DNA of 64,000 bases, from contig NC_008571.1 in NCBI RefSeq assembly GCF_000060345.1, forward strand, positions 2,418,001-2,482,000, in the 5' to 3' direction. Shown here piece after piece: positions 14,340 to 30,987 of this stretch (positions are counted from its first letter, which is position 1; every line of letters starts with the position of its first letter). The notes below the pieces were generated by a model, which did no database searches, was not told the DNA's origin, and saw only the letters and a list, made by a program, of their open reading frames with translations. Both the position numbers and the translations under genes were made by a program. The stretch is from Christiangramia forsetii KT0803 (GTDB taxonomy: Bacteria; Bacteroidota; Bacteroidia; Flavobacteriales; Flavobacteriaceae).

Positions 14340-15425
14340 TTACTCCAACAATCGCTGCATATTCACATTGTCATAATTACGCTTCACAAAATCAAGGGCT
14401 GTTCTAAGAATCTGTCCCATGGTGCTGGCCCGTTTGAACTTCATATCTTTTGAAAAAGCATAAAGATCATTCCGAAGCTGCTTTACATTATCCTTAGTAG
14501 AAACATGATCGTTGATCATACAGCGTATAAGCTCTTTATATCTACTCTGAGTATTGATCATCCTTTTTGCCAGTAACGAACGTTCTTCTTTTCTATATTG
14601 CTCTATAGACGAGTTCTCTAATTTATCTGACACCAGTTGAACCATCTGAAAATTTTCCTTAAAAAACTGTGGCCGATAGACCTTCAGATTTCCTTCAAAA
14701 CATTGCTGATCAAAGTCAATAGCGCGTATCTGATATTCCACATGATCAAAATCATGGGTAGGAATTACTACATAATTATAAGAACGCATATCCCCTAAAA
14801 GCCTTACCGTACACCGCTCATTAAATTTTACAAATTGTTTTGCGATCTGGGTTTGCGCTCTGAGATCGCATAAAGGCAAATGATCTTCAATAAAAACATC
14901 GCCGGGAATTCCCGCAATATGCTCCTCAACTAAAGTATCCTTATAAACCAGAAAATTAATTCGGTGCGGAGAAAGTAAATGTTCAAATTCGAGTCCGTAC
15001 AAACGGGATGCATCTGCTTTTTTTACATAAAAATAGGTGAAACTATCATTCAGAATATTTCGAACTTTTACTCTGAAAGGTTTTGAATTTCCGAAGGTAC
15101 AGTAGTCAATAGCGTCTACGTTAAGATACTCCAGAGAATCGTCACTACCATCAGAATGAAGGATAGTATATACTTTTTTCAGACTTTTATCAATCTCCAC
15201 TCTTTCAAACTCAGGATAATAACAACGTACCCAGAAAGTATCTTCATCATGCTGATCATAAACCACTATAGAGCCTGAAAATCGTAAAAGATCATCATAA
15301 AAAACGGGAATCTTTGTATTACGATTATATTTCGCAAGATATCTGTTGAAGCGTTCATTGATAGGAAATGCCGGCTTCTTCTTGGACATCAGTTTTTCTT
15401 CCATAATTTTCCTCGTTTTGCTCAA
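14340..15425 (-). CDS. Conserved hypothetical protein with kinase-like active-site residues
   Basis: 361 aa, no named family recognised with certainty. Residues 211-217 read GDMRSYN (Asp212, Asn217: the catalytic D-x4-N spacing of protein-kinase-like folds) and 236-239 read IDFD (Asp237, the position of the DFG metal-binding Asp), 20 residues later. This pattern recalls aminoglycoside phosphotransferase/choline kinase-like proteins, but the sequence upstream (about 40-140, PVFYDDLLRFSGSIVVYDQH) does not show an obvious glycine loop. Last ~90 residues are helical and basic. No signal or membrane segment. ATG at 15425 is used; in-frame ATGs at 15404 and 15389 are alternatives. Divergent from the ABC ATPase gene. 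Confidence 0.6.
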   Translation of the reverse strand: MSKTRKIMEEKLMSKKKPAFPINERFNRYLAKYNRNTKIPVFYDDLLRFSGSIVVYDQHDEDTFWVRCYYPEFERVEIDKSLKKVYTILHSDGSDDSLEYLNVDAIDYCTFGNSKPFRVKVRNILNDSFTYFYVKKADASRLYGLEFEHLLSPHRINFLVYKDTLVEEHIAGIPGDVFIEDHLPLCDLRAQTQIAKQFVKFNERCTVRLLGDMRSYNYVVIPTHDFDHVEYQIRAIDFDQQCFEGNLKVYRPQFFKENFQMVQLVSDKLENSSIEQYRKEERSLLAKRMINTQSRYKELIRCMINDHVSTKDNVKQLRNDLYAFSKDMKFKRASTMGQILRTALDFVKRNYDNVNMQRLLE

Positions 15426-15498
15426 AATTAAGCTTATTATAGAGAAACCTGTAACAAATTCCTATTTTAGGCGTCGTATTTTAAACACTTCATCAATC

Positions 15499-16398
15499 TT
15501 GGAAACAATTTTAAGTTTAAATAACCTAACAAAAAGATTCGGCAGGATTACCGCTGTCGATAATTTAAGTTTTAGCATAGAAAAAGGAAATGTTTATGGC
15601 ATTCTGGGCCCAAATGGTAGTGGAAAATCTACTACCCTTGGTATGGTTCTAAATGTAGTTAACAAGACTTCCGGAGACTTTAAATGGTTTAACGGCAATT
15701 TATCTACCCATGAGGCTCTTAAAAAAGTTGGAGCTATTATAGAGCATCCAAACTTTTACCCATACATGACTGCCGAGCAGAATCTAGCCTTGGTTTGCAA
15801 AATTAAAGGCACCGGTAAAAACAAAATCCATGAAAAACTGGAAATTGTAGGTCTTCTGGATAGAAAAGACAGTAAGTTCAAGACTTTCTCACTGGGAATG
15901 AAACAAAGACTTGCCATCGCTTCTGCCCTGCTAAACGATCCTGAAATCCTGATTCTTGACGAACCTACCAACGGACTGGATCCCCAGGGAATTCATCAAA
16001 TTAGAGAAATCATAAGAAAGATCGCTTCAGGAGGAACCACGATCCTTCTGGCTTCTCACCTTTTAGATGAAGTGGAAAAAGTATGTTCTCATGTGGTAAT
16101 TATTAGAAAAGGAGTTAAATTATATAGCGGTCCCGTAGATGAAATAATCAATAGCCACGGCTTTTTTGAACTGAAAGCTGGCGATATGAACAAGCTGGAA
16201 CAACTATTACAGGAACATCCGAAAATCGGGAAGATCACTGATAAGGAAGGTATGCTTACCGCCTTTTTAGAGGATCCTATGGATGCTGAAGAGATCAATC
16301 GTTATCTTTTTGAAAAAGGCCTTTCCCTTTCCTATTTAATAAAGCGAAAAGAGAGCCTGGAAGAACAATTCCTTCAATTAACCAACCAAACCTCCTAA
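15499..16398 (+). CDS. ABC transporter ATP-binding protein, TTG start
   Basis: 299 aa from the TTG at 15499. A longer frame begins at an ATG at 15346, but its first 51 residues lie over the divergent neighbour's start and are not ABC-like, while ETILSLNNLTKRFG is the usual domain opening. Walker A GPNGSGKST is at 37-45, signature FSLGMKQRL, Walker B ILILDEPTNGLDP and the switch His in LLASHLLDEVEKVC. The last ~80 residues form the extension seen in ABC-2 drug or lantibiotic-type exporters. The permease starts 6 bp after the stop, so the pair makes one exporter. Substrate unknown. Confidence 0.9.
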   Translation: METILSLNNLTKRFGRITAVDNLSFSIEKGNVYGILGPNGSGKSTTLGMVLNVVNKTSGDFKWFNGNLSTHEALKKVGAIIEHPNFYPYMTAEQNLALVCKIKGTGKNKIHEKLEIVGLLDRKDSKFKTFSLGMKQRLAIASALLNDPEILILDEPTNGLDPQGIHQIREIIRKIASGGTTILLASHLLDEVEKVCSHVVIIRKGVKLYSGPVDEIINSHGFFELKAGDMNKLEQLLQEHPKIGKITDKEGMLTAFLEDPMDAEEINRYLFEKGLSLSYLIKRKESLEEQFLQLTNQTS

Positions 16399-16403
16399 AG
16401 CGA

Positions 16404-17240
16404 ATGTTACGTTTACTCGAAATAGAATACAACAAACTACGGTATAGCCGATCAGCTAAAATATTGATCATTACCTATTTTATACTCATCACATTTATAG
16501 CATTAATAGCCTCCATAGAATTCAATATTGGAACTATTGAATTCCGCGTTGCAGACCAGGGAATATTTAACTTCCCATATATCTGGCATTTTAACAGCTA
16601 TATCGCGGCGATCTTGAAGTTGTTCCTTGCTATTGTGATTGTATCCATGATGTCTAATGAATACAGCAACCGTACGATAAAGCAGAACCTGATTGACGGC
16701 TTAAGTAAGAAAGAGTTCATTTTATCAAAATTCCTTACGGTTTTAGTATTTGCAGGAGTTTCTACCTTATTTCTCTTTATAGTGACTATAATTCTAGGAT
16801 ACTCTTTTTCTGATTTTACCGAACTTTCTATTGTTTTCTCAGATCTTGAATATTTGCTGGCCTATTTTGTGAAATTAACAGGCTTCTTTGCTTTTTGCAT
16901 GTTCCTGGGGATTTTAGTGAAACGATCAGCTTTTGCTTTAGGCTTCCTGGTAGTATGGTTCATTTTTGAGGGAATTCTCTACGCGATTTTAAATTTCCAG
17001 GTTTTTAAAGGAACAGATATCGCTACGAATATCATGCAGTTCTTCCCATTGGAATCCATGAGCAACCTGGTGGTAGAACCATTTTCGAGATTAAATGCAG
17101 TACAAACCGCCGCCAGTCAGATTGGCGGAGAGCTAACCAAAGATTACGGCATTCACTGGTATCAGCTTTTGATAGTTATTGCATGGATTGCTATTTTCAT
17201 ATATCTAAGTCTTATGCTTTTAAAAAAGAGGGATTTATAA
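16404..17240 (+). CDS. ABC-2 type transporter permease
   Basis: 278 aa with six predicted membrane helices: about residues 20-40, 60-80, 100-125, 140-165, 170-195 and 250-270. The first cytosolic stretch LRLLEIEYNKLRYSRSAKI and the VSMMSNEYSNRTIKQNLIDG segment after helix 2 are standard for ABC-2 permeases. It pairs with the ATPase 6 bp upstream; the complex sits in the inner membrane. Ends 24 bp before the large T9SS cargo gene, though no functional link is known. Confidence 0.88.
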   Translation: MLRLLEIEYNKLRYSRSAKILIITYFILITFIALIASIEFNIGTIEFRVADQGIFNFPYIWHFNSYIAAILKLFLAIVIVSMMSNEYSNRTIKQNLIDGLSKKEFILSKFLTVLVFAGVSTLFLFIVTIILGYSFSDFTELSIVFSDLEYLLAYFVKLTGFFAFCMFLGILVKRSAFALGFLVVWFIFEGILYAILNFQVFKGTDIATNIMQFFPLESMSNLVVEPFSRLNAVQTAASQIGGELTKDYGIHWYQLLIVIAWIAIFIYLSLMLLKKRDL

Positions 17241-17264
17241 TACCTTGGGTTTTTAGCGTTTTTT

Positions 17265-20027
17265 ATGAAACTTCGTTATTGCCTGTTTTTCTTTTTACTA
17301 TTGATCTTCACTACAAAATCCAGTGCGCAAAAAGAAGCTGGTACTTGGTATTTTGGAGATAGAGCTGGTTTAAATTTTTCTTCAGGTTCACCGGTACCTC
17401 TTACCAATGGACAGTTACAAACTATAGAAGGATCTGCCACAATTTCTGATAGAGATGGAAACCTTTTATTCTATACTCAGGGTAATACTGTTTTTACAAG
17501 GCAACATAATATAATGCCCAATGGAGAAGAATTAAAAGGAAACGTTTCAAGCACCCAATCTGCGATTATAGTCCCCAGACCAGGAAACCCACTTAAATAT
17601 TTCATTTTTACGGTTGATAAACCAGATTATTTCAGGATACAGAACGATCCAATAGAAGGGGTACATTATTCTGAAGTAGACATGACCCTTAATAGTGGAA
17701 GAGGTGCTATTATACCGAATCGAAAAAATATTCATTTGGTTACTTATGATCCAAATGATCCTCTAGAGAATGAGTATAAAAGTTCTGAAAAAATTTCTTC
17801 CGTCATTAGTGGAAATTGTATTTCATATTGGGTGGTAACTCAGCTTTCCAATAAATTCTATGCGTTTAATGTTAGTTCAGAAGGAGTAAATTCAACACCG
17901 GTTATTTCCACTATTCCAACTAGTTTCCCTCCTCTAATAACCGATAATAATCTAAATCTTACTGCGCCCGGTTACATGAAAATTTCTCCCGACGGAAAAA
18001 AAATAGCTATAGCTTTTACAGGAACTTCTTTAGGAAATTCTTCTAATGGAACTAAAAGTAGCGGTAAAGTTTACCTGTATGATTTTAACGATGTCACCGG
18101 AAAAGTAACCAATGAAAATTTAATACTTAATAATACATATCCATATGGTGTCGAATTTTCAGCGGATAGCAAGAAATTGTACACAACAGCAAATACCTAT
18201 AATAACCGTGATCAATTACAAAGCGGTGAATTATATCAATTTGACCTGGAAAGAATTAATATTGGTGCATCGAAATCCTTAATTAATACATCAAATAATG
18301 TCGCTGGTGCTTTGCAACTGGCAATTGATGGGAAAATTTACCGGGCAGGTTATCCACAAAGTAGTGGAGCTGTACACCATAATTTTTTATCGGTCATAAA
18401 TAATCCTGAAGCCAATGCAAGCTCGGTAGATTATGATCATAATTCAGTCGATATTTCTCCCAGGGATGTTAAATTGGGTTTACCCCCTTTTGTGCAGTCA
18501 CTCTTGAATAATAATTTTGATGCTGAAAATTTCTGTCTTGGGGAAGCTACCAAATTCACTATAAACGGAGGTGTGAATTATGATTCTATTAAATGGGAAT
18601 TTGGAGATGGTACTACATCTTCAGAAGAATCACCTTCCCATACTTATTCTGAACCAGGGACTTACGTAGTGAGTCTAACTAAGTTCATAAATAATATCCC
18701 ACAAGATCCAGTTTGTGAGGAGGTCACTATTATAGGTTTTGATCAGGCTGCCCAAAATTACACTTTAACCCAATGTGATATATCCGACGATGATCCTGAT
18801 GATGGATTAACAGATTTCAATCTTCAAATTGCAAGGGACAACTTCACTGGTGGAGATAATAATATAAAAGTCTTATTTTATGAGGATACTCAGAGTGCCC
18901 AGTTAGATGACCTCAACCAGGGCGGCCTACCAGACATTTATAGAAATACAAGCGCAGGTCAAACGCTGGTAGCGAAAGTAACGGATTATGATAACGAATG
19001 TGCCAGTTATTCAGAATTTGATCTGGCAACCAGTAGTTCAGTAGAACCAATAAAGGTTCAAACGCTCATAGGCTGTAGTACCAATTCTGAAGAAGCCGAA
19101 TTTAATTTTGTTTCTATAACTGAAGAAGTAAGGATCGAACTCAATTTGAATCAGAATACAATTATCACATTTCATGAAGATAAGAATGAAGCATTACTGG
19201 GCGAAAATCCTCTATCAAATAATTATTTTTCTGAAGAAAAAACGATTTACTTACGCGTGAATAGTGATCAGGCCTGTTATAGTCTTGGAATCCTTAATCT
19301 TGAGATTGTTGAATTCCCTGAAATTCAACAAGAATATAACCTACAATCATGTAGTGATAATTTTCCTCTGGATTTAGGAAATGAAATTGGCCTGGCAACT
19401 CCCGGAGACTTTTTATATGAATGGAGCACCGGGCAGAATTCTCCCACAATCCAGGTAAATGAGTCTGGTACTTTTATTTTAAACTTAATCAGGAAAAATA
19501 GTGGTTGCTCAATTGAAATTGAATTTCAGGTTGAAAAAATCGAAGCTCCAGAAATTAGTGAAATTGAAATTACGAATGAAGGTAGCAATAATACGCTGAA
19601 TGTATTGACCAATTCTATAGATCAAAATACTGTTTTTGCATTAGACGATATTGAAGGTCCGTACCAATCGAGCCCTATCTTTCAAAATGTACCCGGCGGA
19701 AGCCATAAAATTTATATCAAGAACGACCAGGCTTGTGAAATTGGAGCGCAGGAAATTTCACTATATGGTCATCCGGCCTTCTTTACACCCAATAATGATG
19801 GTTATCATGATCTATGGCGACCGTTTGATATTCCCGATCCTGATTATGCTCTAGCGGGTATATTTATCTTTGATAGATATGGCAAATTATTGATTCAGTT
19901 ACCACCAAATACTAAAGGCTGGGACGGAACTTCCAATGGAAAACCAATGCCCTCTGATGATTATTGGTTTGAAGTTAGATTGCAGAATGGTAAAGTCTTT
20001 AATGGTCACTTCTCACTTGTTAGATGA
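17265..20027 (+). CDS. Secreted PKD/gliding-motility C-terminal domain protein (T9SS cargo)
   Basis: 920 aa. A signal peptide (LRYCLFFFLLLIFTTKSSA, cleaved before QKEAG) leads to a large beta-propeller-like region to about residue 400 (for example GTWYFGDRAGLNFSSG, SPDGKKIAIAF, FSADSKKLYTT). A PKD domain follows at about 420-490 (WEFGDGTTSSEESPSHTYSE). Several Ig-like beta repeats with cysteine pairs come next. The last ~85 residues are a CHU_C/type B T9SS signal: FTPNNDGYHDLWRP, IFDRYGKLL, GWDGTSNGKPMPSDDYWF. It should be exported by Sec, then the type IX system, and stay on the surface or be released. Such proteins often bind or degrade glycans, but no catalytic domain is seen. Confidence 0.88.
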   Translation: MKLRYCLFFFLLLIFTTKSSAQKEAGTWYFGDRAGLNFSSGSPVPLTNGQLQTIEGSATISDRDGNLLFYTQGNTVFTRQHNIMPNGEELKGNVSSTQSAIIVPRPGNPLKYFIFTVDKPDYFRIQNDPIEGVHYSEVDMTLNSGRGAIIPNRKNIHLVTYDPNDPLENEYKSSEKISSVISGNCISYWVVTQLSNKFYAFNVSSEGVNSTPVISTIPTSFPPLITDNNLNLTAPGYMKISPDGKKIAIAFTGTSLGNSSNGTKSSGKVYLYDFNDVTGKVTNENLILNNTYPYGVEFSADSKKLYTTANTYNNRDQLQSGELYQFDLERINIGASKSLINTSNNVAGALQLAIDGKIYRAGYPQSSGAVHHNFLSVINNPEANASSVDYDHNSVDISPRDVKLGLPPFVQSLLNNNFDAENFCLGEATKFTINGGVNYDSIKWEFGDGTTSSEESPSHTYSEPGTYVVSLTKFINNIPQDPVCEEVTIIGFDQAAQNYTLTQCDISDDDPDDGLTDFNLQIARDNFTGGDNNIKVLFYEDTQSAQLDDLNQGGLPDIYRNTSAGQTLVAKVTDYDNECASYSEFDLATSSSVEPIKVQTLIGCSTNSEEAEFNFVSITEEVRIELNLNQNTIITFHEDKNEALLGENPLSNNYFSEEKTIYLRVNSDQACYSLGILNLEIVEFPEIQQEYNLQSCSDNFPLDLGNEIGLATPGDFLYEWSTGQNSPTIQVNESGTFILNLIRKNSGCSIEIEFQVEKIEAPEISEIEITNEGSNNTLNVLTNSIDQNTVFALDDIEGPYQSSPIFQNVPGGSHKIYIKNDQACEIGAQEISLYGHPAFFTPNNDGYHDLWRPFDIPDPDYALAGIFIFDRYGKLLIQLPPNTKGWDGTSNGKPMPSDDYWFEVRLQNGKVFNGHFSLVR

Positions 20028-20184
20028 ATCCTAAAAAATTGATTTAAGCTTAATAATTGTTTAATTTCGTGAGGCTATGAAATAGGTCATAAAAAATCCT
20101 GAAAGCTTTTGGGTTAATCTATGACAAACTTCATCTGATCGCTTAAAAGCGCTTTCTAATTAGATGAAAAAGAAAATAAACTGA

Positions 20185-22188
20185 ATGAAATTCAATATAA
20201 AATCAGATTATAAACCAACCGGAGATCAGCCAAACGCCATAAAGCAACTGGTCACCGGAATAGATAAAAACGAGCAATATCAAACCCTGTTGGGTGTTAC
20301 CGGTTCTGGTAAAACTTTTACCGTTGCCAACGTGATTGAAGATGTTCAGAAGCCTACGCTTGTTTTGGCTCATAATAAAACACTGGCTGCTCAGCTTTAT
20401 TCAGAATTCAAGGAGTTTTTTCCGGAAAATGCCGTGGAATATTTTGTAAGCTATTACGATTATTACCAGCCTGAAGCTTTTATTCCTTCTTCCGGGACTT
20501 ATATAGAGAAGGACCTTTCCATAAATGAAGAAATCGAAAAATTACGTTTAAGCACCACATCTTCTCTTCTAAGCGGAAGAAGGGATGTGATAGTGATCGC
20601 ATCGGTTTCCTGCCTTTATGGTATTGGTAATCCGGTTGAATTCAGAAAAAACGTCGTTTCTATTGAAAGAGATATGGAGATATCCAGAACCAAATTTCTA
20701 CATAGACTGGTTCAAAGTCTCTATTCCAGAACTGAAGCGGAATTTAACCATGGTAATTTCAGAATTAAAGGGGATACCGTTGATGTCTTTCCAAGTTATG
20801 CGGACAATGCTTTCAGAATTCACTTTTTTGGAGATGAAATTGAAGATATTGAGGCATTTGATCCGGGAACCAATGATGTTATTGAAAAATATGAACGTCT
20901 TAATATTTATCCCGCCAATATGTTCGTAACCTCTCCTGATGTACTTCAGGGAGCAATCCGTGAAATTCAAGACGATCTTGTAAAACAGGTTGATTATTTT
21001 CAGGATATCGGTAAAAATCTGGAAGCGAAAAGACTGGATGAAAGAACCAATTTCGATCTTGAAATGATTCGGGAGCTTGGGTATTGTTCAGGAATTGAGA
21101 ATTACTCACGCTATCTTGACGGTAGAATGCCGGGAACCCGCCCTTTCTGTTTACTAGATTATTTTCCGGAAGACTATTTAATGGTGGTGGATGAAAGTCA
21201 CGTAACCATTCCGCAAGTACACGCCATGTTTGGCGGTGACCGTTCCCGAAAAGAAAACCTGGTAGATTATGGCTTTAGACTACCCGCAGCTATGGATAAC
21301 CGGCCTCTAAAATTTGAAGAATTTGAAGCGCTTCAAAACCAGGTGATCTATGTGAGTGCGACTCCGGCAGATTATGAACTTCAGAAAAGTGAAGGGGTGT
21401 ATGTAGAGCAGGTTATAAGACCAACGGGCTTGTTGGATCCGATAGTTGAAGTTAGGCCTAGTTTGAATCAAATAGATGATCTCATTGAGGAGATTCAGAT
21501 TCGAGTGGATAAGGATGAGCGTATTCTGGTCACTACACTTACAAAACGTATGGCTGAAGAATTAACAAAATACCTGACGAGAATCGATATTCGTTGTCGC
21601 TATATTCATTCAGATGTAGACACATTGGAACGAGTTGAGATCATGCAGGATCTACGAAAAGGAATTTTTGATGTTCTGGTAGGCGTCAACCTTTTACGAG
21701 AAGGCCTGGATCTTCCGGAAGTTTCCCTGGTAGCAATTATAGATGCCGATAAAGAAGGTTTTCTTCGAAGCAATCGTTCCCTGACTCAAACTATAGGTCG
21801 TGCCGCAAGACATGTTGATGGGAGAGCAATATTATATGCTGATAAAATCACTAATAGTATGCAAAAAACGATTGATCAAACAGAATATAGACGTCAAAAG
21901 CAGATTGATTATAATACCGAAAATAACATTACTCCCACTAAACTTGTCAAAAAATTCAATAATGCTTTGATCAAAGAAAAGCTGGACATTTACGATCATG
22001 AAACACGTCCTGATCTTAAAGCGGCCGAAGAAGAAGCTGAATATCTGTCCAAACCACAAATGGAGAAAAAGGTGAGAGAAAAGCGTAAAGCAATGGAAAC
22101 TGCGGCAAAAGAGTTGGATTTCATGCAGGCGGCAAGGCTTCGGGATGAAATTAAAATGCTTCAGGAAAAAATTAGTGAAATGGTGTAA
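20185..22188 (+). CDS. uvrB: Excinuclease ABC subunit B
   Basis: 667 aa, full length. UvrB is the damage-verifying helicase-like subunit of nucleotide excision repair, loaded by UvrA and cut-partner of UvrC. Walker A GVTGSGKT is at 37-44; the beta-hairpin region YYDYYQPEAFIPSSGTYIEK is around 92-111; the helicase motif DESHVTIPQ, the ILVTTLTKRMAEELT and the QTIGRAARHVDGRAILYAD motif VI follow. A C-terminal UVR domain ends the protein (MEKKVREKRKAMETAAKELD). It is monocistronic by spacing, with a 157-bp leader region upstream and 89 bp before the next gene. Confidence 0.98.
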   Translation: MKFNIKSDYKPTGDQPNAIKQLVTGIDKNEQYQTLLGVTGSGKTFTVANVIEDVQKPTLVLAHNKTLAAQLYSEFKEFFPENAVEYFVSYYDYYQPEAFIPSSGTYIEKDLSINEEIEKLRLSTTSSLLSGRRDVIVIASVSCLYGIGNPVEFRKNVVSIERDMEISRTKFLHRLVQSLYSRTEAEFNHGNFRIKGDTVDVFPSYADNAFRIHFFGDEIEDIEAFDPGTNDVIEKYERLNIYPANMFVTSPDVLQGAIREIQDDLVKQVDYFQDIGKNLEAKRLDERTNFDLEMIRELGYCSGIENYSRYLDGRMPGTRPFCLLDYFPEDYLMVVDESHVTIPQVHAMFGGDRSRKENLVDYGFRLPAAMDNRPLKFEEFEALQNQVIYVSATPADYELQKSEGVYVEQVIRPTGLLDPIVEVRPSLNQIDDLIEEIQIRVDKDERILVTTLTKRMAEELTKYLTRIDIRCRYIHSDVDTLERVEIMQDLRKGIFDVLVGVNLLREGLDLPEVSLVAIIDADKEGFLRSNRSLTQTIGRAARHVDGRAILYADKITNSMQKTIDQTEYRRQKQIDYNTENNITPTKLVKKFNNALIKEKLDIYDHETRPDLKAAEEEAEYLSKPQMEKKVREKRKAMETAAKELDFMQAARLRDEIKMLQEKISEMV

Positions 22189-22258
22189 ATAAATGTTCTG
22201 GATATTAATATTTAATATATATTTATCTCATCCTAAAGCAATTAAGCACACTATAATG

Positions 22259-22276
22259 ACAAACAAATTTGTTTGT
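22259..22276. promoter_or_regulatory. Perfect 18-bp palindrome next to a start codon
   Basis: ACAAACAAATTTGTTTGT is a perfect palindrome ending 1 bp before the ATG at 22278. In RNA it could fold over the translation start; in DNA it could be an operator. Which applies cannot be told from sequence. Confidence 0.55.
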
Positions 22277-22277
22277 T

Positions 22278-23495
22278 ATGAGAAATTTTTATGTTTTTAT
22301 TTTATTCCATTTCTGTGTTTTTGGTTATTCTCAGGTAGGAATTGGCACTTCAGACCCGAAGGCGCAGTTAGATATTATTGCTACGAACAGTGATAACCCA
22401 GCCAATATTGACGGTATCCTGGTTCCTAGAATTGAAAAATTCTCCATGGAAAACCCTGGAAAAGACCAACATGGAATGCTGGTTTTTTTAAACAAAAGCG
22501 TTACGGGATACTCTTCCGGATTTTATTTCTGGAATGCTCTGGAAGTGAAATGGAAATCTATTGCGTCTGATGCAGGAGGTGCAAACTTTCATAAACCGGG
22601 AACTACACAGAGTCCTAATAATATTTCAGATCCAATTTATCGTGAATCGAGTATTGGGTTGGGTACCGATCAAATTACATCTAGATTACAAATCGCAATT
22701 CCTGCCGGAAAAGATCTTAGTTTAAAGAAAGGACTGGAAGTAGACAATGCCAATTCAGCTACCGATAATCTTACTACTTACGGAATAGTAAATGATAACA
22801 GAAGTACAACTAATGGCAATAAATATGGAATCAAGAACAATGTTGGCGGGATAGGAACCGGAATTCACTATGGAATTTTTAATGAAACCTATCAGAATAC
22901 AGGTACCAATGATATCTACGGAATTTTTAATCGCATAGGACGAACTTTTGGTGCGAGAAGTAATAATTACGGTATCTACAATGAAATAGGCAGTATCCAG
23001 GGAGTCGGAAATATATACGGGATCTATAGTATCGCTCTTGGAGACTCAAATAGTAATGTGTATGCTGGTTATTTTGCCGGAAGGGTAGGAATAGGAAATA
23101 CTCCTGAAACAGATTATACATTACCAACCGCAAGAGGACTTGAAGGACAAACGATGATTTTAAATTCTACCGGACAGGCATCCTGGGCTAATCCGGGGTA
23201 TCAAAATTATTCTTCGACCACAAGCGCTACTGGGGATTTTGTAATTTCTGATGAAATTGGAACCCTTAGAATAAATAATCAGGTTTCCGGATTAGTAATC
23301 CCGGCATCTTCTACCAATAAAGGGCGCATTATCAGATTAATAAACTGGCCGGCTAATTCTGAAAAAATACTTGTTTTTCTGGGAAGCGATGATCTTTTTG
23401 ATCCCCGAAGCAACACAAAGATCTTAAGTATAAAACCTCAGCAGATCTTTACCATACAAAGTGCAGGAAATAGATGGATTCTTTTAGACCAGTAA
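22278..23495 (+). CDS. Secreted protein with ~16-residue YGI repeats
   Basis: 405 aa from the ATG at 22278; an in-frame TTG at 22269 would add three residues but lies inside the palindrome. A signal peptide (RNFYVFILFHFCVFGYSQ) is followed by VGIGTSDPKAQLDI, the start of the tail-fibre-like N-terminal segment common in secreted Bacteroidota proteins. YGI[VKFYN]-type motifs begin at residues 168, 183, 198, 214, 231 and 247, a spacing of 15-17 that suggests a beta-helix or trimeric fibre. A second VGIGNTPETDY motif and a beta-rich C-terminal domain follow. No T9SS terminal signal was recognised. Function unknown; surface adhesin or fibre is an inference. Confidence 0.7.
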   Translation: MRNFYVFILFHFCVFGYSQVGIGTSDPKAQLDIIATNSDNPANIDGILVPRIEKFSMENPGKDQHGMLVFLNKSVTGYSSGFYFWNALEVKWKSIASDAGGANFHKPGTTQSPNNISDPIYRESSIGLGTDQITSRLQIAIPAGKDLSLKKGLEVDNANSATDNLTTYGIVNDNRSTTNGNKYGIKNNVGGIGTGIHYGIFNETYQNTGTNDIYGIFNRIGRTFGARSNNYGIYNEIGSIQGVGNIYGIYSIALGDSNSNVYAGYFAGRVGIGNTPETDYTLPTARGLEGQTMILNSTGQASWANPGYQNYSSTTSATGDFVISDEIGTLRINNQVSGLVIPASSTNKGRIIRLINWPANSEKILVFLGSDDLFDPRSNTKILSIKPQQIFTIQSAGNRWILLDQ

Positions 23496-23540
23496 ATTTC
23501 TTCAGGGTAAGCCTCGGAGTATTTACCCTCCTAGAATAAA

Positions 23541-23567
23541 AAAAGCGCTCTAATTGAGCGCTCTTTC
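23541..23567. terminator. Bidirectional terminator between convergent genes
   Basis: AGCGCTC (23544-23550) pairs with GAGCGCT (23556-23562) across a 5-nt loop; an A-run precedes and CTTTCT follows. It can stop both the 22278 gene and the convergent hsp20 gene. Confidence 0.75.
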
Positions 23568-23598
23568 TCCTCTAACTAACTAACCAAACTAATTCAGT

Positions 23599-24042
23599 TT
23601 ACGAAATATCAATTAATCTTTTCGCCTGAACTTTTGCTTCTTCTTTTTTAGGAAGAGCAATCTCCAAAACCCCATTATTATAAGAGGCAGAGATCTTACC
23701 GTTATCTACCGAATCTGGTAAACTAAACGCACGTTTAAAGGTGCTATAGCTAAATTCTTTTCTGGTAAACTTTCCTTTTTCAACTGCAGTTTCACTCTCT
23801 TTATTATCTTCAGAAGAGATCGTTAAAACATTCTTATCAAGTTCAATATTAAAATCATCTTTAGATTTGCCAGGAGCGGCAACCTCTACAGAAAAACTCT
23901 CTTCAGTTTCCCTAATATTAACTGCAGGTATGCTAGTTCCAATACTATTTACATTTGTAGTACCTCCTAACCAGTCTGTTTTGAACATATCGTCAAAAAC
24001 TGAGGGTAACCAACCCGTTTCATTGTGCTTTATAAGACTCAT
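23599..24042 (-). CDS. Hsp20/alpha-crystallin small heat-shock protein
   Basis: 147 aa from the ATG at 24042 (MSLIKHNETGWLPSVFDDMF); an upstream ATG at 24081 adds 13 unlike residues (LKLIIKLKNK) and is less likely. The alpha-crystallin domain spans about 45-145, with VNIRETEESFSVEVAAPG, the FTRKEFSYSTFKRAFSLPDSV segment and the closing NGVLEIALPKKEE. It is an ATP-independent chaperone forming oligomers that hold unfolded proteins. Transcribed alone, ending at a shared terminator, with a pair of repeated TGTC-type sites upstream (24120-24165) that may be heat-shock control elements. Confidence 0.93.
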   Translation of the reverse strand: MSLIKHNETGWLPSVFDDMFKTDWLGGTTNVNSIGTSIPAVNIRETEESFSVEVAAPGKSKDDFNIELDKNVLTISSEDNKESETAVEKGKFTRKEFSYSTFKRAFSLPDSVDNGKISASYNNGVLEIALPKKEEAKVQAKRLIDIS

Positions 24043-24119
24043 AGTTTTATTTTTTAATTTAATAATCAATTTTAAAGTCACTTAACTGAATAGCAATTGA
24101 AGTACCAATTGATAAATAC

Positions 24120-24165
24120 TGTCTTTTTGTCTTATTTAATCAAGTAAATAATGACATTTTGTCTA
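24120..24165. promoter_or_regulatory. Pair of TGtC-TTTTGTCT sites upstream of hsp20
   Basis: TGTCTTTTTGTCTTAT at 24120 and TGACATTTTGTCTATT at 24152 are near-copies 32 bp apart (three helix turns). The second contains the palindrome GACATTTTGTC. They lie 78-125 bp upstream of the hsp20 start and also upstream of the divergent DUF2254 gene. A regulator-binding role is inferred. Confidence 0.5.
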
Positions 24166-24239
24166 TTTTTTATAAATTATTATTAAAACCTTTCCCCAAT
24201 CGCAGGTTTGAGTAACTTTAAAAGCTAACTAACCAAAGT

Positions 24240-25556
24240 ATGAAGCAACTTTTTAATCGAACAATCTCCTTTTTTAATGTTATTGAAAGTAAAATTGCTT
24301 TTTATCCTACGGTATTAGCAGTTTTCGGATTTATTTTTGCACTGGTGATGACTTATTTGGAGAACCTGGGGATTTCCAAATATTTAGTAGAACATGCTCC
24401 CAGCCTTGTTGTAAATAATGGAGATACAGCAAAGACTATATTAAGTTCTTTTATTTCCGGGTTAATTTCTGTAGTGGTATTCAGTTTTTCGATGGTGATG
24501 CTTTTGCTTAGCCAGGCTTCCAGTAATTACTCTCCTAGATTACTTCCTGGTCTGATATCCGATAAAAAACACCAGATCATCCTTGGGGTATACCTGTTTA
24601 CTATACTGTATTGTATTTTTATATTATTTACGATACAGCCAACCGGAAATAAATACCAGGTACCGGGATTTGCCGTGTTGATTGGTATTGTTTCTACCGT
24701 AGTATCTATTTATGCCTTTATTTATTTTATCCATAACATTTCTCAAAGTATCCAGATAAGTAACATCCTTCAAAATATTTTTAAGACCGCAAAGACAAGA
24801 CTTGATCAGCTTATTGAAAAAGAAAAGGAAAATAACAGAGACTTTGAAAATACTGATGGTTGGTACGAGTATTCTTCAGAAAAAAGCGGCTATCTTCAGA
24901 ATATCTCCTATTCAAACCTGATTGATATTTGTAGAAAAAAAGAGACTAAGTTCCATATATTACCGGTCAAAGGAATTTTCGTTTTAAATGGGATCCCCTT
25001 ATTTAAATCTAAAAAGGAATTAGATGAAGATACTGTTAAACAGATTCTCTTTAATTTCAATTTTGCACGGGAAGAACTGGTGGAAGACAATTATACCCTG
25101 GCTTTCAAACAAATCACAGAAATTATTCTTAAAGCGATGTCACCTGGTATCAACGACCCGGGGACGGCAATTAATGGTATAGACTATCTTACCGAACTTT
25201 TTGCCTTACGCATGCGGAAATTAGATACGAATATGATAAGCAGGGATGAAACTGTGTTCATTAAAATGAATACGATAGATTTCGCTGACTTGCTGTACAA
25301 TATTATGGCAGCAATACGCACTTATTGTAAACATGACATCATTTTAGTTCAAAAATTACTGATGATGCTGCATTATCTAAAAAAGCAACAGGCAGCAAAT
25401 GACTCTTATTACGAGTCTTTAGATCAGGAATCTATTTATCTTCTAAACGATGCGGAAGAAGCTATTTCTAATAAAAAAGATATTGAAACAGCAAAAAGAC
25501 TAGCCTCTAAACTCAATTTGAATTTTAACTATAACGCAAATGGCACTAACCAATAA
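24240..25556 (+). CDS. DUF2254 family membrane protein
   Basis: 438 aa. Four predicted membrane helices in the first ~190 residues (about 20-42, 72-97, 112-133, 145-170), including ILSSFISGLISVVVFSFSMV and the LLLSQASSNYSPRLLPGL segment that is conserved in DUF2254. The C-terminal ~240 residues are cytosolic and mostly helical, with the conserved AMSPGINDPGTAINGIDYL stretch near 300. Function of the family is not established. It is divergent from hsp20 and its end overlaps the small DUF1456 gene by 17 bp, suggesting co-translation. Confidence 0.88.
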   Translation: MKQLFNRTISFFNVIESKIAFYPTVLAVFGFIFALVMTYLENLGISKYLVEHAPSLVVNNGDTAKTILSSFISGLISVVVFSFSMVMLLLSQASSNYSPRLLPGLISDKKHQIILGVYLFTILYCIFILFTIQPTGNKYQVPGFAVLIGIVSTVVSIYAFIYFIHNISQSIQISNILQNIFKTAKTRLDQLIEKEKENNRDFENTDGWYEYSSEKSGYLQNISYSNLIDICRKKETKFHILPVKGIFVLNGIPLFKSKKELDEDTVKQILFNFNFAREELVEDNYTLAFKQITEIILKAMSPGINDPGTAINGIDYLTELFALRMRKLDTNMISRDETVFIKMNTIDFADLLYNIMAAIRTYCKHDIILVQKLLMMLHYLKKQQAANDSYYESLDQESIYLLNDAEEAISNKKDIETAKRLASKLNLNFNYNANGTNQ

Positions 25557-25776
25557 TGATGTTTTTAAAAAGCTAAGAGTAGCTCATAAATTAACGAATG
25601 ATGATATTGTAAAAATCTGCGAGCTGGTAGATTTTAAGGTTTCCAAAAGTGAACTTGGAGCAATATTCAGAAGGGAAGATCATGAAAAATATATGGAATG
25701 TGGCGATCAATTTCTTAGAAATTTTCTTGACGGACTCATCATTCATCTAAGAGGGCCTATGCCGAAGAAAAAATGA
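25540..25776 (+). CDS. DUF1456 (YehS-like) protein
   Basis: 78 aa. One DUF1456 unit: MALTNNDVFKKLRVAHKLTN, then DIVKICELVDFKVSKSEL and a FRREDHEKYMECGDQFLRNF block. E. coli YehS has two such units, so this is a single-domain, half-length version as in many Bacteroidota. It is helical, soluble and of unknown function. Overlap with the DUF2254 gene (17 bp) and the terminator 25 bp downstream show it is the last gene of a two-gene unit. Confidence 0.85.
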   Translation: MALTNNDVFKKLRVAHKLTNDDIVKICELVDFKVSKSELGAIFRREDHEKYMECGDQFLRNFLDGLIIHLRGPMPKKK

Positions 25777-25800
25777 CTTTAGACTTTGAACAAAATTAAA

Positions 25801-25839
25801 AAAGGAGTTGAACCTAAAATTTCAACTCCTTTTATTTTT
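25801..25839. terminator. Bidirectional terminator
   Basis: A 12-bp perfect stem, AAAGGAGTTGAA (25801-25812) with TTCAACTCCTTT (25821-25832), has an 8-nt loop and T-rich tail on both strands. It separates the DUF1456 gene from the convergent ettA. Confidence 0.9.
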
Positions 25840-25854
25840 TCCAAAATTTGATTC

Positions 25855-27546
25855 TTAGCGAACCAGTTTCTTGTATTTAATTCGTTTCGGCATTATATCT
25901 CCACCTAAACGTTTTTTCTTGTTTTCTTCATAATCTGAAAAACTTCCCTCAAAGAAATACACCTGAGAGTCTCCTTCAAAAGCAAGAATATGTGTACAAA
26001 CCCTATCCAGGAACCAACGGTCGTGAGAAATAACTACAGCACAGCCGGCAAAATTATCCAGACCTTCCTCAAGTGCTCTTAATGTGTTTACATCAAGGTC
26101 GTTTGTTGGCTCATCCAGCAAAAGAACATTCCCTTCTTCTTTAAGGGTCATTGCAAGATGTAAACGGTTTCGTTCACCACCAGAAAGCATATTCACTTTC
26201 TTATTTTGTTCGCTTCCACTAAAATTAAATCTACTCAAATAAGCTCTTGAATTTACCTGTCGGCCTCCCATCATGATCAATTCCTGCTCATCACTAAAGT
26301 TTTGCCAGATCGTTTTTTCAGGATCTATATTCGAGTGACTTTGATCCACATATGAGATTTTGGCAGTTTCTCCAACTTTGAAATTCCCTTTATCAGGATC
26401 TTCCTCTCCCATGATCATCTTGAAAATCGTGGTTTTACCAGCACCGTTTGGCCCGATAATTCCTACAATTCCTGCCTGAGGAAGATTAAACTTAAGATCT
26501 TCATAAAGTAATTTATCTCCAAATGCTTTACTCACCCCTTCAGCATCGATCACATTGGTACCTAAACGAGGTCCATTCGGAATATAAATTTCCAGCTTCT
26601 CGTCCATCTGCTTCTGATCCTGACTCATTAATTTATCATAATTCTTAAGCCTGGCTTTCTGCTTACTTTGTCTACCTTTTGGACTCATTCTGGACCATTC
26701 AAGCTCTCGCTCCAACGTTTTTTGACGTTTGCTGGCCTGTTTTTGTTCTTGCGCAAGACGCTTAGATTTCTGGTCTAACCAAGAAGAATAGTTTCCTTTC
26801 CATGGAATCCCTTCTCCTCTATCCAGTTCAAGAATCCAACCAGCTACATTATCCAGGAAATAACGGTCGTGAGTTACAGCGATCACCGTTCCTTTATATT
26901 GAGCCAAATGATGCTCTAACCAATGGACAGATTCTGCATCCAGGTGGTTGGTAGGCTCATCCAGCAATAATACATCAGGCTCTTGAAGTAGAAGTCGGCA
27001 AAGCGCTACTCTTCTTCTCTCTCCTCCTGAAAGTACCGAAATCTTCTTATCTGAATCTGGAGTTCTTAAAGCATCCATGGCTATCTCCAATTTGGTATCA
27101 AGTTCCCATGCATTACTGGCATCAATCTTATCCTGAAGTTCAGCCTGCTTATCCATAAGCTTTTGCATTTTATCTGCATCTTCATAAACTTCCGGAAGCC
27201 CGAACATATCGTTGATCTTATTGTATTCATCCAGAATTCCAACTGTTTCGGCCACTCCTTCTTTTACTACATCCAATACAGTCTTTTCTTCATCGAGATC
27301 TGGTTCCTGTTCTAACATTCCGACGCTATAATTAGGAGAAAAAACCACATCTCCCTGATAATTTTGATCGCGTCCAGCTATGATATTCAGCAAAGTAGAT
27401 TTACCAGAACCATTAAGTCCCAGAATTCCAATTTTAGCGCCATAAAAAAAACTGAGGTAAATATTCTTTAGAACCGGCGTATTTGCATTTTTAAAAGTTT
27501 TGGTAACTCCAGACATGGAGAAAATTACCTTATTATCGTCTGCCAT
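25855..27546 (-). CDS. ettA: Energy-dependent translational throttle protein EttA (ABC-F)
   Basis: 563 aa, matching EttA length (~555). Two ABC domains without membrane part: first Walker A GLNGSGKST at 43-51 and LSGGERRRVALCRLLLQEPD; second GPNGAGKTT, LSGGERNRLHLAMTLKEEGN and LLLDEPTNDLDVN. The inter-domain region SRMSPKGRQSKQKARLKNYD is the P-site tRNA interaction motif of EttA. In E. coli EttA binds the ribosomal E site and gates the first elongation step according to ATP/ADP ratio. It is transcribed alone, upstream gap 68 bp, and converges on the DUF1456 gene with a shared terminator. Confidence 0.95.
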   Translation of the reverse strand: MADDNKVIFSMSGVTKTFKNANTPVLKNIYLSFFYGAKIGILGLNGSGKSTLLNIIAGRDQNYQGDVVFSPNYSVGMLEQEPDLDEEKTVLDVVKEGVAETVGILDEYNKINDMFGLPEVYEDADKMQKLMDKQAELQDKIDASNAWELDTKLEIAMDALRTPDSDKKISVLSGGERRRVALCRLLLQEPDVLLLDEPTNHLDAESVHWLEHHLAQYKGTVIAVTHDRYFLDNVAGWILELDRGEGIPWKGNYSSWLDQKSKRLAQEQKQASKRQKTLERELEWSRMSPKGRQSKQKARLKNYDKLMSQDQKQMDEKLEIYIPNGPRLGTNVIDAEGVSKAFGDKLLYEDLKFNLPQAGIVGIIGPNGAGKTTIFKMIMGEEDPDKGNFKVGETAKISYVDQSHSNIDPEKTIWQNFSDEQELIMMGGRQVNSRAYLSRFNFSGSEQNKKVNMLSGGERNRLHLAMTLKEEGNVLLLDEPTNDLDVNTLRALEEGLDNFAGCAVVISHDRWFLDRVCTHILAFEGDSQVYFFEGSFSDYEENKKKRLGGDIMPKRIKYKKLVR

Positions 27547-27614
27547 ATATTTTTAAAATTTAAATTTTTAAATCTATCTAAGAAGATGCAAATATCCTGA
27601 ATTTTTCAGAGAAA

Positions 27615-28094
27615 TCAATTGTCATAAACACTCAATAATCGTTCAATAATCAGCAATTGTCCCGTATGATAGGCTGTATGTTCCACAACAAGGATTATTT
27701 CTCTTAAAAGACTGTGTTCATTTGAGTTTTGCACCGGTTTATTTAGATCGTTATTACTATCAAGAATGTATTCTTTAAACAACCTTCTATCTTCAAAATA
27801 CTCGGCTTTTAAGTCTTCCCAATCCTCTTCATTAGCAGGTGCCGGTCGTCCCGGCCAGTAATCATCCGGCCAGTTTCGAGTATTATAATCACCGGAAATG
27901 CTATATTCAAGAATATCTTTTTGAGCAAAAGCAATATGAAAGAAGATCTCGTAAAATGAATATGGCAAACCGGACGGCCTTACTCCAATTTTTTCGAAAG
28001 GAATTCCATCTAAAAAACTATCTATAGAAGCATATGCAAGTCCTCCCTCAAGATGTTTTACCAATTGATTTCGCTGTGTTACATCTACATTCAT
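27615..28094 (-). CDS. DinB-like metal-binding protein
   Basis: 159 aa four-helix bundle of the DinB/YfiT type. The likely metal histidines are in the IFFHIAFAQKDIL helix (about residue 52) and in VVEHTAYHTGQLLII (about 137-142), the usual H...HxxxH arrangement. A WPDDYWPGRPAPANEEDW insert links helices. Members include thiol-dependent transferases and many uncharacterised proteins; the specific reaction is unknown. It is 10 bp downstream of the small membrane protein gene on the same strand. Confidence 0.8.
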   Translation of the reverse strand: MNVDVTQRNQLVKHLEGGLAYASIDSFLDGIPFEKIGVRPSGLPYSFYEIFFHIAFAQKDILEYSISGDYNTRNWPDDYWPGRPAPANEEDWEDLKAEYFEDRRLFKEYILDSNNDLNKPVQNSNEHSLLREIILVVEHTAYHTGQLLIIERLLSVYDN

Positions 28095-28104
28095 AGTCTT
28101 AATT

Positions 28105-28284
28105 TTAAACCCGGCCCTTTAGAGCATTAAAAACCCAGGATATAAAGAAAAATCCTATTCCAGTTACAGAAAAACCAATTGCATAATCCCTATATTTTAA
28201 AACCCCTAAAAGTACAAGAGCCGTTCCCACAAGAAACATTAAAAAAGAGGCCCATCCAAAAATAGTATTTTTATTCATTGCCAT
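28105..28284 (-). CDS. Small two-helix membrane protein
   Basis: 59 aa from the ATG at 28284; an ATG at 28278 and a TTG at 28287 are possible. It has two membrane helices, NTIFGWASFLMFLVGTALVL and about residues 32-52 (YAIGFSVTGIGFFFISWVF), and a short basic C-terminus. It resembles the small flavobacterial membrane family that NCBI names after a Gramella protein (CAL67264 family), from memory. Function unknown. It likely forms an operon with the DinB-like gene 10 bp downstream. Confidence 0.75.
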   Translation of the reverse strand: MAMNKNTIFGWASFLMFLVGTALVLLGVLKYRDYAIGFSVTGIGFFFISWVFNALKGRV

Positions 28285-28411
28285 CAATCCGGTTTTATTA
28301 CAAATATCGGCTAATTTTTAATGATTGTTTTAAACCATAGAATTCAAGTGATTTTGTATTTTAGCAAAAAGTCATTTCTGAATAAAAATTCACAATATTT
28401 CTTCAGAAATT

Positions 28412-28432
28412 AGATTAATTTCGAATTAATCT
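28412..28432. promoter_or_regulatory. Inverted repeat, candidate operator
   Basis: AGATTAATT-TCG-AATTAATCT is a perfect 9-bp inverted repeat with a 3-bp centre, 38 bp before the acyl-CoA carboxylase start. Size and position fit a dimeric repressor or activator site. No regulator gene is adjacent. Confidence 0.5.
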
Positions 28433-28470
28433 TAGCGAAATAGTCGAATTCTTGTAAATAGTTCAAAATA

Positions 28471-30099
28471 ATGGATATCAATTTCAATAAAAATGAAGAT
28501 TACAACAAGCTTTTAGTTTCTTCTTTGAGACAGAGGCTTGCCAAAGTAAAACTTGGTGGTGGTGAAAAAAAAATAGAAAAACATCATTCCAAAGGAAAAA
28601 TGACCGCCAGGGAGCGAATCGATTTTCTTTTAGATGATAAATCGAACTCCATCGAAATTGGTGCGTTTGCAGGAGAAGGAATGTACAAAGAGCATGGCGG
28701 ATGCCCCAGCGGAGGTGTTGTAGTTAAAATGGGATATGTATCTGGCAAGCAATGTATCGTGGTTGCCAATGACGCAACTGTGAAAGCGGGAGCCTGGTTT
28801 CCAATAACCGGGAAAAAGAATCTTCGTGCTCAGGAAATTGCTATAGAAAACAGGTTACCTATTATTTATCTGGTAGACAGTGCAGGTGTTTATTTACCTA
28901 TGCAGGATGAAATATTTCCTGATAAAGAACATTTTGGAAGAATATTTCGCAACAATGCAGTAATGAGCAGTATGGGAATCACTCAAATCGCAGCAGTAAT
29001 GGGAAGCTGTGTAGCCGGAGGAGCCTATTTACCTATTATGAGTGATGAAGCCATTATTGTTGAAAAGACCGGAAGTATATTTTTAGCAGGTAGCTACCTT
29101 GTAAAAGCTGCCATTGGTGAGTCTATAGATAATGAAACGCTTGGAGGAGCTACTACGCATTCTGAGATAAGCGGAGTAACAGATTATAAAGCAAAAGATG
29201 ATAAAGATGCGCTAACCCGTATTCAAAACATCATGGATAAAATTGGCGATTATGACAAAGCGGGATATAGTCATAAGAAGTCCGTTAAACCAAAGGAAAA
29301 CCCGGAAGATATCTACGGAATTCTACCTAAGAAAAGAAGTGACCAGTATGATATGCACAAGATTATTGAAAGACTTGTGGATGGTTCAGAATTTGAAGAA
29401 TATAAAGAAGGATATGGGCAAACAATTATCACTGGTTATGCCCGTATAGACGGTTGGGCAGTTGGAATTGTTGCCAATCAGCGAAAGATTGTAAAAACCA
29501 AGAAAGGTGAAATGCAGTTTGGGGGAGTGATCTATTCAGATTCTGCCGATAAGGCTACTCGTTTCATTGCAAACTGCAATCAGAAGAAAATTCCATTGGT
29601 TTTTCTTCAGGATGTCACCGGATTTATGGTGGGAAGTAAAAGCGAACATGGCGGAATCATTAAAGATGGTGCCAAAATGGTAAATGCCGTAAGTAATTCT
29701 GTAGTTCCGAAATTTACCATAATTATAGGAAATTCTTATGGTGCAGGAAATTACGCTATGTGCGGAAAGGCTTATGATCCAAGACTAATCGCTGCCTGGC
29801 CAAGTGCTGAACTTGCCGTAATGGGAGGAACTCAGGCTGCTAAAGTACTCGCTCAAATCGAAACGGCCTCAATGGCCAAAAAAGGTGAAAAAGTAGATGA
29901 GGAAAAAGAGAAAGAAGTATTTGAAAAACTGAAAGCTAAATACGATGAGCAGACTTCTGCTTATTATGCCGCAGCCAGAATCTGGACAGATGCTATCATA
30001 GATCCTTTAGATACCAGAAAGTGGATCTCCATGGGGATAGAAGCTGCCAATCATGCTCCTATCGAGAAAGATTTTAATATGGGGGTAATTCAAACCTGA
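28471..30099 (+). CDS. Acyl-CoA carboxylase, carboxyltransferase (beta) subunit
   Basis: 542 aa, the size of methylcrotonyl-/propionyl-CoA carboxylase beta subunits. It transfers the carboxyl from carboxybiotin to an acyl-CoA. The N-terminal domain has KMTARERIDFLLD and YLVDSAGVYLPMQDEIFP; the C-terminal carboxyltransferase domain has FLQDVTGFMVGSKSEHGGI, the oxyanion region GNSYGAGNYAMCGKAYDPR and WPSAELAVMGGTQAAKVL. The pattern is nearest to the methylcrotonyl (leucine breakdown) or geranyl type, but substrate cannot be fixed; no biotin carboxylase subunit is in the window. Preceded by an inverted repeat and followed 3 bp later by a secreted-protein gene. Confidence 0.85.
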   Translation: MDINFNKNEDYNKLLVSSLRQRLAKVKLGGGEKKIEKHHSKGKMTARERIDFLLDDKSNSIEIGAFAGEGMYKEHGGCPSGGVVVKMGYVSGKQCIVVANDATVKAGAWFPITGKKNLRAQEIAIENRLPIIYLVDSAGVYLPMQDEIFPDKEHFGRIFRNNAVMSSMGITQIAAVMGSCVAGGAYLPIMSDEAIIVEKTGSIFLAGSYLVKAAIGESIDNETLGGATTHSEISGVTDYKAKDDKDALTRIQNIMDKIGDYDKAGYSHKKSVKPKENPEDIYGILPKKRSDQYDMHKIIERLVDGSEFEEYKEGYGQTIITGYARIDGWAVGIVANQRKIVKTKKGEMQFGGVIYSDSADKATRFIANCNQKKIPLVFLQDVTGFMVGSKSEHGGIIKDGAKMVNAVSNSVVPKFTIIIGNSYGAGNYAMCGKAYDPRLIAAWPSAELAVMGGTQAAKVLAQIETASMAKKGEKVDEEKEKEVFEKLKAKYDEQTSAYYAAARIWTDAIIDPLDTRKWISMGIEAANHAPIEKDFNMGVIQT

Positions 30100-30102
30100 T
30101 TT

Positions 30103-30987
30103 ATGAAACACACATTTTTTCTATTTATCACCGTATTTATAAGTCTACAAGCATTTTCTCAGGATACAATTAAAAGACAGGCTGCAAGGAAGTTTATTTC
30201 CCTGAAATTTTACGAAGAAACATTTGGGAAACCTGTAGACACCACGGAATTTAGTTATAGAGATAATGATACCCTGGTAAGAGTACCACTTGATTTCGAT
30301 CCCTATGCCGGAAAAGACTACGTGAGAGTGGAATATGTTCCAAAAGATTCAACATTTCTGGATATCTATAAGGATGTTGTGTACAATACCGATGTGAAGA
30401 TAGATTCAACCGAAAGGATGAAATACTGGAAAGAAGAAATCAGGATATTTTTTGATGAAAGCGTACCTGTATCGCATACCAAAGATCTCATGCAATTTGC
30501 GAAAACGATCTCCAGGGATATAGACTCACTAAAGATTACTCGAAATTTTGATAGAGAGAAATCAAATTATCTGGTGTATTATCTAAACAGAGAAAACATC
30601 AGTGATTATGAACCCAGAATAACCAATAATACTGGTGGTTATTATGTTAGCTGGAACGGACGGCAACAGATTTATGACGGAAAACTGAAGATTAATACAG
30701 AAAAAGCAAAGTCGGAAGAACTTCAGCTAAATCTATTAAAATTTCACTTTTTTAAATCTTTAGGATATTTCAGATCATCAAAAGATTTGGTTTGCAAAAG
30801 TATTTTATCGGCCTGTAGAACCTTAAGAGAGCTCACAGAAAGAGATTTGGAAATCTTAAATTATCATTACTCTTACGGTGTTTGTAAAGGGGAAACATTG
30901 AAAAATTTCTCAGAACAAACTCAGAGAATGCAAGAAGTCTTAGATAAAGATCCAAACGCCAAATTATATATAATGCATCATGAATAG
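30103..30987 (+). CDS. Secreted protein, possibly DUF2927-like
   Basis: 294 aa with a signal peptide (KHTFFLFITVFISLQAFS, then QDTIK). The central part (about 110-270) has EIRIFFDESVPVSHTKDLM, YLVYYLNRENISDYEP and LLKFHFFKSLGYFRSS, then a late LTERDLEILNYHYSYGVCKG. This order resembles DUF2927, a family related to zinc peptidases, but a complete zinc motif is missing (FHFFKSLG rather than HExxH), so it would be inactive. The assignment is tentative. It is 3 bp after the carboxylase gene and overlaps the M1 peptidase gene by 8 bp, so it is co-translated with an exported peptidase. Confidence 0.6.
   Translation: MKHTFFLFITVFISLQAFSQDTIKRQAARKFISLKFYEETFGKPVDTTEFSYRDNDTLVRVPLDFDPYAGKDYVRVEYVPKDSTFLDIYKDVVYNTDVKIDSTERMKYWKEEIRIFFDESVPVSHTKDLMQFAKTISRDIDSLKITRNFDREKSNYLVYYLNRENISDYEPRITNNTGGYYVSWNGRQQIYDGKLKINTEKAKSEELQLNLLKFHFFKSLGYFRSSKDLVCKSILSACRTLRELTERDLEILNYHYSYGVCKGETLKNFSEQTQRMQEVLDKDPNAKLYIMHHE

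Follow-up and report, generated by a model that had tools for sequence, protein, structure and literature searches.

The XD1 domain of CBA120 TSP4, T4 gp9, a domain of T4 gp10 and domains of the metalloproteases CpaA (6O38) and StcE are treated as one fold in PMC8825819. The same paper describes the phage versions (TSP4 XD1, gp9 and gp10) as trimeric spacers and calls those of CpaA and StcE glycan-binding (PMC8825819). Residues 308-405 of the protein described here have a predicted fold like that of the XD1-type domains of TSP4, gp9 and gp10, but they have no sequence match to them and are located at the C-terminus of a secreted bacterial protein, behind a shaft of YGI repeats. The CpaA and StcE domains are alike in fold class; they are, however, parts of metalloproteases, whereas no protease domain was detected in this protein with Pfam or NCBIfam.

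Fibres with a Peptidase_S74 domain (PF13884), annotated as 'tail fiber domain-containing protein', have a VGIGT head and YGI-type repeats in common with the protein, although the latter lacks the S74 domain, is shorter and has a fixed length. The YadA-head trimeric adhesins likewise have a repetitive shaft of short period, but the unit here consists of 15-17 residues and neither YadA_head nor the YadA anchor was matched. Bacterial genomes often carry many tail-fibre-like proteins, long and variable ones. Within the modular tail-fibre-like class of Bacteroidota, which is already known, this protein is a compact variant. It is encoded in the window analyzed, a stretch of 64,000 nucleotides of the Christiangramia forsetii KT0803 genome (3.80 Mb, single contig), whose closest named relatives are Christiangramia. 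We propose, with a probability of about 0.6, that the protein is secreted and forms a compact trimeric fibre, its shaft made of YGI repeats and its tip of the XD1 type; the trimer, the stacked shaft, the outer-surface location and the binding activity are the elements that we infer. A literature search, not exhaustive and so not establishing absence from print, found no publication naming either the protein or the YGI repeat.

Layout of the gene and the YGI repeat

The features of the gene and its product are as follows.

22278..23495 (including the stop codon), + strand: whole gene, coding for a secreted fibre-like protein of 405 amino acids with an ATG start (ORF and 34-row orthologue alignment)
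22278..22331, + strand: putative Sec signal peptide, residues 1-18, cut before Q19, without lipobox (sequence inspection)
22332..22451, + strand: N-terminal module QVGIGTS-P-AQLDI...DGILxPRI, residues 19-58, common to many otherwise unlike Flavobacteriaceae proteins
22452..22568, + strand: FYFWN...KW module, residues 59-97 (pLDDT about 65-81)
22650..22700, + strand: second VGIGT-type segment, residues 125-141 (sequence)
22770..23063, + strand: block of six YGI repeats, each unit 15-17 residues long, residues 165-262, evolving more slowly than any other part
23064..23204, + strand: linker module AGYFxGrVGIG...YxLP..RG..GQ....GQxSW, residues 263-309, common to relatives
23199..23492, + strand: C-terminal domain with a predicted XD1/gp9-type fold, residues 308-405, about 98 residues (AlphaFold2 model and fold comparison)
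23544..23562, + strand: terminator-like stem-loop between the gene and a convergent hsp20-like gene (2 such stem-loops in the region, where shuffles give 1.6)

The presumed mature end, Q19, is invariant in 34/34 aligned orthologues while Cys12 is not conserved, and neither inspection nor the 34-row alignment showed a lipobox Cys at the cleavage site. Pfam returned 0 families at E<=10 for the whole protein, hence no Peptidase_S74, YadA_head or YadA anchor, and no PDB sequence matched it. Judged by its sequence, the protein convincingly fits no family model among the libraries searched.

The original prediction placed YGI motifs at residues 168, 183, 198, 214, 231 and 247, between two VGIGT-type segments. 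The six motifs were found exactly there, at intervals of 15, 15, 16, 17 and 16 residues, and VGIG-type segments do flank them, occurring at residues 20, 126 (IGLG) and 270. Shuffling the mature protein 20,000 times gave a mean of 0.23 YGI and a maximum of 3, and the frequency of random placements as evenly spaced was about 1e-5. No tandem repeat was detected at the DNA level in the gene, which indicates that the repeat is an old one, at the protein level. An aromatic-G pair is present at all six homologous positions in 34/34 aligned orthologues; a narrow motif search found six YGI in 33 of them, one copy being YGM in the remaining one. The block has 98 residues in 31 of the 34 and 96-97 in the other three. 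The consensus of 108 distinct 15-residue units is Y-G-x-Y-N-x-I/L-x-G-S/T-G-x-G-x-H/K, and the repeat profile had no sequence relatives in PDB.

A profile of the block found the repeat in many ORFs of Flavobacteriaceae. The expectation that repeat number would vary held only among the more distant relatives, where 18 chosen proteins have 2 to 21 units by a loose motif count and 15 residues is the commonest spacing in most; among orthologues the number is six throughout. The strict YGI profile matched 4/296 genomes phylum-wide, a figure unfit for a census because the profile is too narrow.

The C-terminal domain and the fibre proposal

The AlphaFold2 model of a single chain, built from 34 rows, had a mean pLDDT of 58 overall and values of 84-95 over residues 311-405. 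When this tip was compared with known structures, the C-terminal domain of the phage Solidus tailspike was matched with Z 11.3 (rmsd 2.5, 87 aligned residues), followed by 6o38 chain F (Z 10.0), TSP4 residues 79-177 (Z 9.7), a T4 baseplate chain (Z 8.4), StcE (Z 7.3) and T4 gp9 (Z 7.1), with the matches between Z 11.3 and 7.1 spanning 85-94 residues. According to the model, residues 308-405 adopt an XD1/gp9-type fold. A profile of the domain found nothing below E 0.37 among PDB sequences, Pfam gave nothing convincing for it, and 9/296 genomes of the phylum sample, our own included, were matched. Its homologues close collagen-like proteins (L118 and L121) as well as other repetitive proteins (L116, L119 and L120); the ends of L118, L121 and L119 weakly match PHROG 15797, of unknown function (E 3e-4 to 1.6e-3).

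The shaft was modelled with much lower confidence. In the full single-chain model the YGI repeats had a pLDDT of 32-42, and a segment model from 49 diverse rows gave 40-54 for repeats one to four and 54-79 for the last two. The segment model reached Z values of only 2.1-2.5, none above, among the 40 PDB chains compared. A globular, non-repeating fold, which the original prediction took as its counter-case, is absent from models whose confidence over the repeats is too low to exclude one. Low pLDDT is often seen for one chain of an intertwined trimer and equally results from a thin alignment. As modelled, the repeat pLDDT is evidence neither for nor against a trimer. The original prediction read the period as that of a beta-helix or trimeric fibre, and the models show neither.

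Seventeen relatives sharing the head and/or YGI block, hand-picked from the strong matches and not random, were scanned with Pfam (L029 is one more, outside the scan): Peptidase_S74 was above the cut-off in 9/17, C1q was found below it in 2/17, and 6/17 had neither. L012 has an additional collagen stretch, and a YadA_head protein adjoins the YGI protein in L067. Ends with S74, C1q, collagen or YadA_head belong to trimeric proteins. The likening of the N-terminus to phage-tail-like secreted Bacteroidota proteins was borne out, as the head and YGI recur in Flavobacteriaceae proteins that end in tail-fibre modules. The head and C-terminal domain are also present without the YGI block in L065, L115 and L122; the three parts, head, shaft and tip, therefore seem to be interchangeable. 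Two other Flavobacteriaceae genomes, L069 and L068, have clusters of several VGIG-type fibre-like genes, and in L069 a YGI protein adjoins another S74 protein. Peptidase_S74 was found in 0/24 genomes of the genus at E<=0.001, though family members elsewhere carry such fibres, so the protein must fold and assemble without an S74 chaperone.

Removal of the Sec signal peptide would leave Q19 as the new N-terminus. The chain would then consist of a VGIGT/FWN head, a six-turn YGI shaft with each unit of 15-17 residues stacked on the next, and the linker, with the XD1/gp9-type tip helping to hold three chains together. The tip probably binds a partner, which we infer to be a glycan or another envelope protein. 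The XD1-type domain would take the place of the S74 chaperone or C1q-like end of other Flavobacteriaceae proteins, and with such an end no S74 self-cleavage would be needed. A threefold fibre is suggested because modules are common to S74 fibres, the tip fold is trimeric in phages and the period is short and even. Trimer and shaft fold are probable on these grounds, from single-chain models with most repeats poorly modelled.

A trimer cannot be read from the tip alone, because the XD1-type fold is also carried as a glycan-binding domain by the metalloproteases CpaA and StcE (PMC8825819). That precedent fits another arrangement, in which the protein is a monomeric or periplasmic component of the envelope, YGI forms a single-chain solenoid and the XD1-type module holds periplasmic or outer-membrane glycans. 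In NCBIfam, which includes models of type IX sorting domains, no type IX C-terminal sorting domain (0 families at E<=10) or other outer-membrane export signal was found; a lipobox is also missing by inspection. The C-terminal membrane anchor of trimeric autotransporters (type Vc) had no Pfam match, the C-terminus being the XD1-type domain. However, relatives that share this head and shaft carry S74 modules at their ends, and S74 modules act on trimeric fibres. The XD1-type domain is also trimeric in gp9, gp10 and TSP4 (PMC8825819). We consider the monomeric arrangement unlikely and favor the secreted trimeric fibre.

The fold of the tip, common to tailspike and baseplate proteins, and the matches of relatives to PHROG tail-fibre families, mostly via the S74 end, also bring to mind a domesticated tail fibre of a phage, tailocin or contractile injection system. 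This is very improbable: there were 0 matches in 50,697 phage records and none in viral contigs, the lone plasmid match was weak (Aureispira, residues 1-139, 31.7%), a signal peptide was recognized by inspection, the gene occupies a core position on the chromosome, flanked by uvrB and the hsp20-like gene, and no further tail gene was recognized by eye among the surrounding ORFs. With no phage match and a single weak plasmid match, a prophage or tailocin origin was rejected.

Conservation and genomic setting

The gene was present as a single copy in 24/24 Christiangramia genomes searched, split over two contigs in one incomplete draft, and our own genome has one copy even at E<=10. The top orthologue among the matches listed was from C. 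sediminis (82% identity), and a few neighboring genera also have orthologues. In a family sample of 299 genomes, 111 gave a match of some kind at E<=1e-5. In only eight of them, our own included, did it cover essentially the whole protein; the others matched the N-terminal part or the repeats. Of eleven loci from named genomes, ten encode full or nearly full-length relatives, in Christiangramia, Gillisia and an unclassified Flavobacteriaceae MAG, with L004 truncated where its contig ends; the eleventh, L012, encodes a distant protein.

Thirty-four orthologues were aligned after leaving out five duplicate fetches and two partial sequences. Their mean pairwise identity was 0.78 in the YGI block, 0.77 in the N-terminal VGIGT segment, 0.64 in the C-terminal domain, 0.52 in the FWN module, 0.26 in the signal peptide and 0.64 in the whole protein. 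Within the genus (23 sequences, 253 pairs) dN/dS was 0.023 for the YGI block, 0.058 for the tip, 0.129 for the FWN part and 0.056 overall, ratios that are rough because dS is near saturation. By these sequence comparisons, the YGI block is the most conserved part and the one under the strongest purifying selection.

In 39 of the 40 orthologous loci (five of the 40 are duplicate fetches), uvrB lies directly upstream in the same orientation, at a distance of about 70-175 bp; the 40th is a contig end. A small heat-shock-like (hsp20-like) gene is convergent downstream in 30/40. Among 30 family uvrB loci examined, out of 59 genomes with uvrB, the gene lies within 1500 bp downstream of uvrB in three, our own genome and two others. 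The neighbor genes do not indicate a shared pathway. Two genes upstream, 17265-20027 encodes a 920-residue protein without a match at that place in L003, while L004 and L011 each have two matching ORFs in this region, a variable spot between conserved genes. The C-terminus of that protein resembles a gliding-motility-type sorting domain.

Christiangramia is a marine genus. A fibre like the one we favor could mediate adhesion to algal polysaccharides or surfaces, with the XD1-type tip as lectin, a reading compatible with the trimer and different only on the role. The fibre-like architecture and the glycan-binding precedents of the fold (PMC8825819) agree with it. No polysaccharide-utilization genes were recognized by eye among the adjoining ORFs (14340-32614), however; the fixed copy number and very low shaft dN/dS are unlike those of diversifying adhesins, and the conservation of the tip is ordinary (dN/dS 0.058). 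An algal adhesin is possible but doubtful. With copy number, place and repeat number all invariable and the strongest selection on the shaft, a constant housekeeping-like role in the envelope appears likelier than that of a fast-evolving host adhesin; the constancy of place, copy number and shaft sequence makes a structural or constant-partner role the more likely one.

A predicted hairpin at the start codon

Two further features precede the coding region.

22256..22279, + strand: predicted hairpin of 6-7 bp that immediately precedes the start codon and touches it, with core arms at 22259-22265 and 22270-22276 (RNA folding)
22218..22255, + strand: conserved block of the leader, 5' of the hairpin, containing TATATTTA at 22218-22225 (alignment)

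The leader block reads TATTTA..CTCATCCTAAAGCATTTA across the genus, and we take TATATTTA to resemble the Bacteroidota -7 promoter box. At the foot of the hairpin is a conserved ATG, which pairs with the region of the start codon in several of the species.

The hairpin was predicted in 24/24 genus members with energies of -4.3 to -10.7 kcal/mol; its z against shuffles was <= -3 in 17/24, with a median of -3.9. Among the window's 50 ORF starts this one alone reached z -3, and none of the control starts did (hsp20 0/21 in the same genus loci, uvrB 0/5, two other genes 0/4 each). The arms vary between species, yet pairing was kept in 91% of cells, as compared with 35-48% when the partner was slid 1-3 columns. 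Only 3 pairs and 4 cells were changed on both sides, numbers that lie within the range of shuffles (72 and 39 of 500); realignment to a covariance model, which leans towards structure and adds two weak matches, gave 4 pairs and 5 cells. An arm-swap test (0/20,000) was inflated since each stem was picked as the best pairing, and it was not relied on. RNAalifold predicted no pairs on the leader alignment, which counts against the hairpin. Greater weight is given here to the folds of single sequences, the controls and the test with slid partners, because the sequence-based alignment shifts the arms in several rows.

Rfam gave no match over threshold for the leader. The covariance model found one place in our own genome at E<=1 and, over 35 loci, its 24 source loci and two weak matches, one at 13231-13293 (E 0.094) and one that precedes the gene in L010 (E 0.29). 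According to the model the element is absent from 10/11 non-genus orthologous loci searched; when ten non-genus leaders were folded, L009 (z -2.7) and L015 (z -2.5) had hairpins of their own and most had none. The hairpin probably controls translation of the gene. The inverted repeat may instead be an operator, but many departures from pairing are G-U pairs and the loop varies from 4 to 9 bases, which suits RNA better than an operator of fixed spacing. Tentatively, and with less assurance than the trimeric fibre itself, the YGI unit could be the building unit of a new class of trimeric fibre shaft that occurs widely in Flavobacteriaceae; its six-unit Christiangramia version would then be a core envelope component, with an RNA hairpin gating translation by sequestering the start codon.

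The Bacteroidota phylum does not use Shine-Dalgarno sequences. A gene-specific start-codon hairpin in such a phylum would be a simple system for studies of regulated initiation, and this side finding may merit more attention. No Pfam model matched the YGI shaft, and a short, single and strictly kept protein provides a tractable minimal case for solving it. The same single short fibre is an opening to ask what such fibres do in the envelopes of Bacteroidota.
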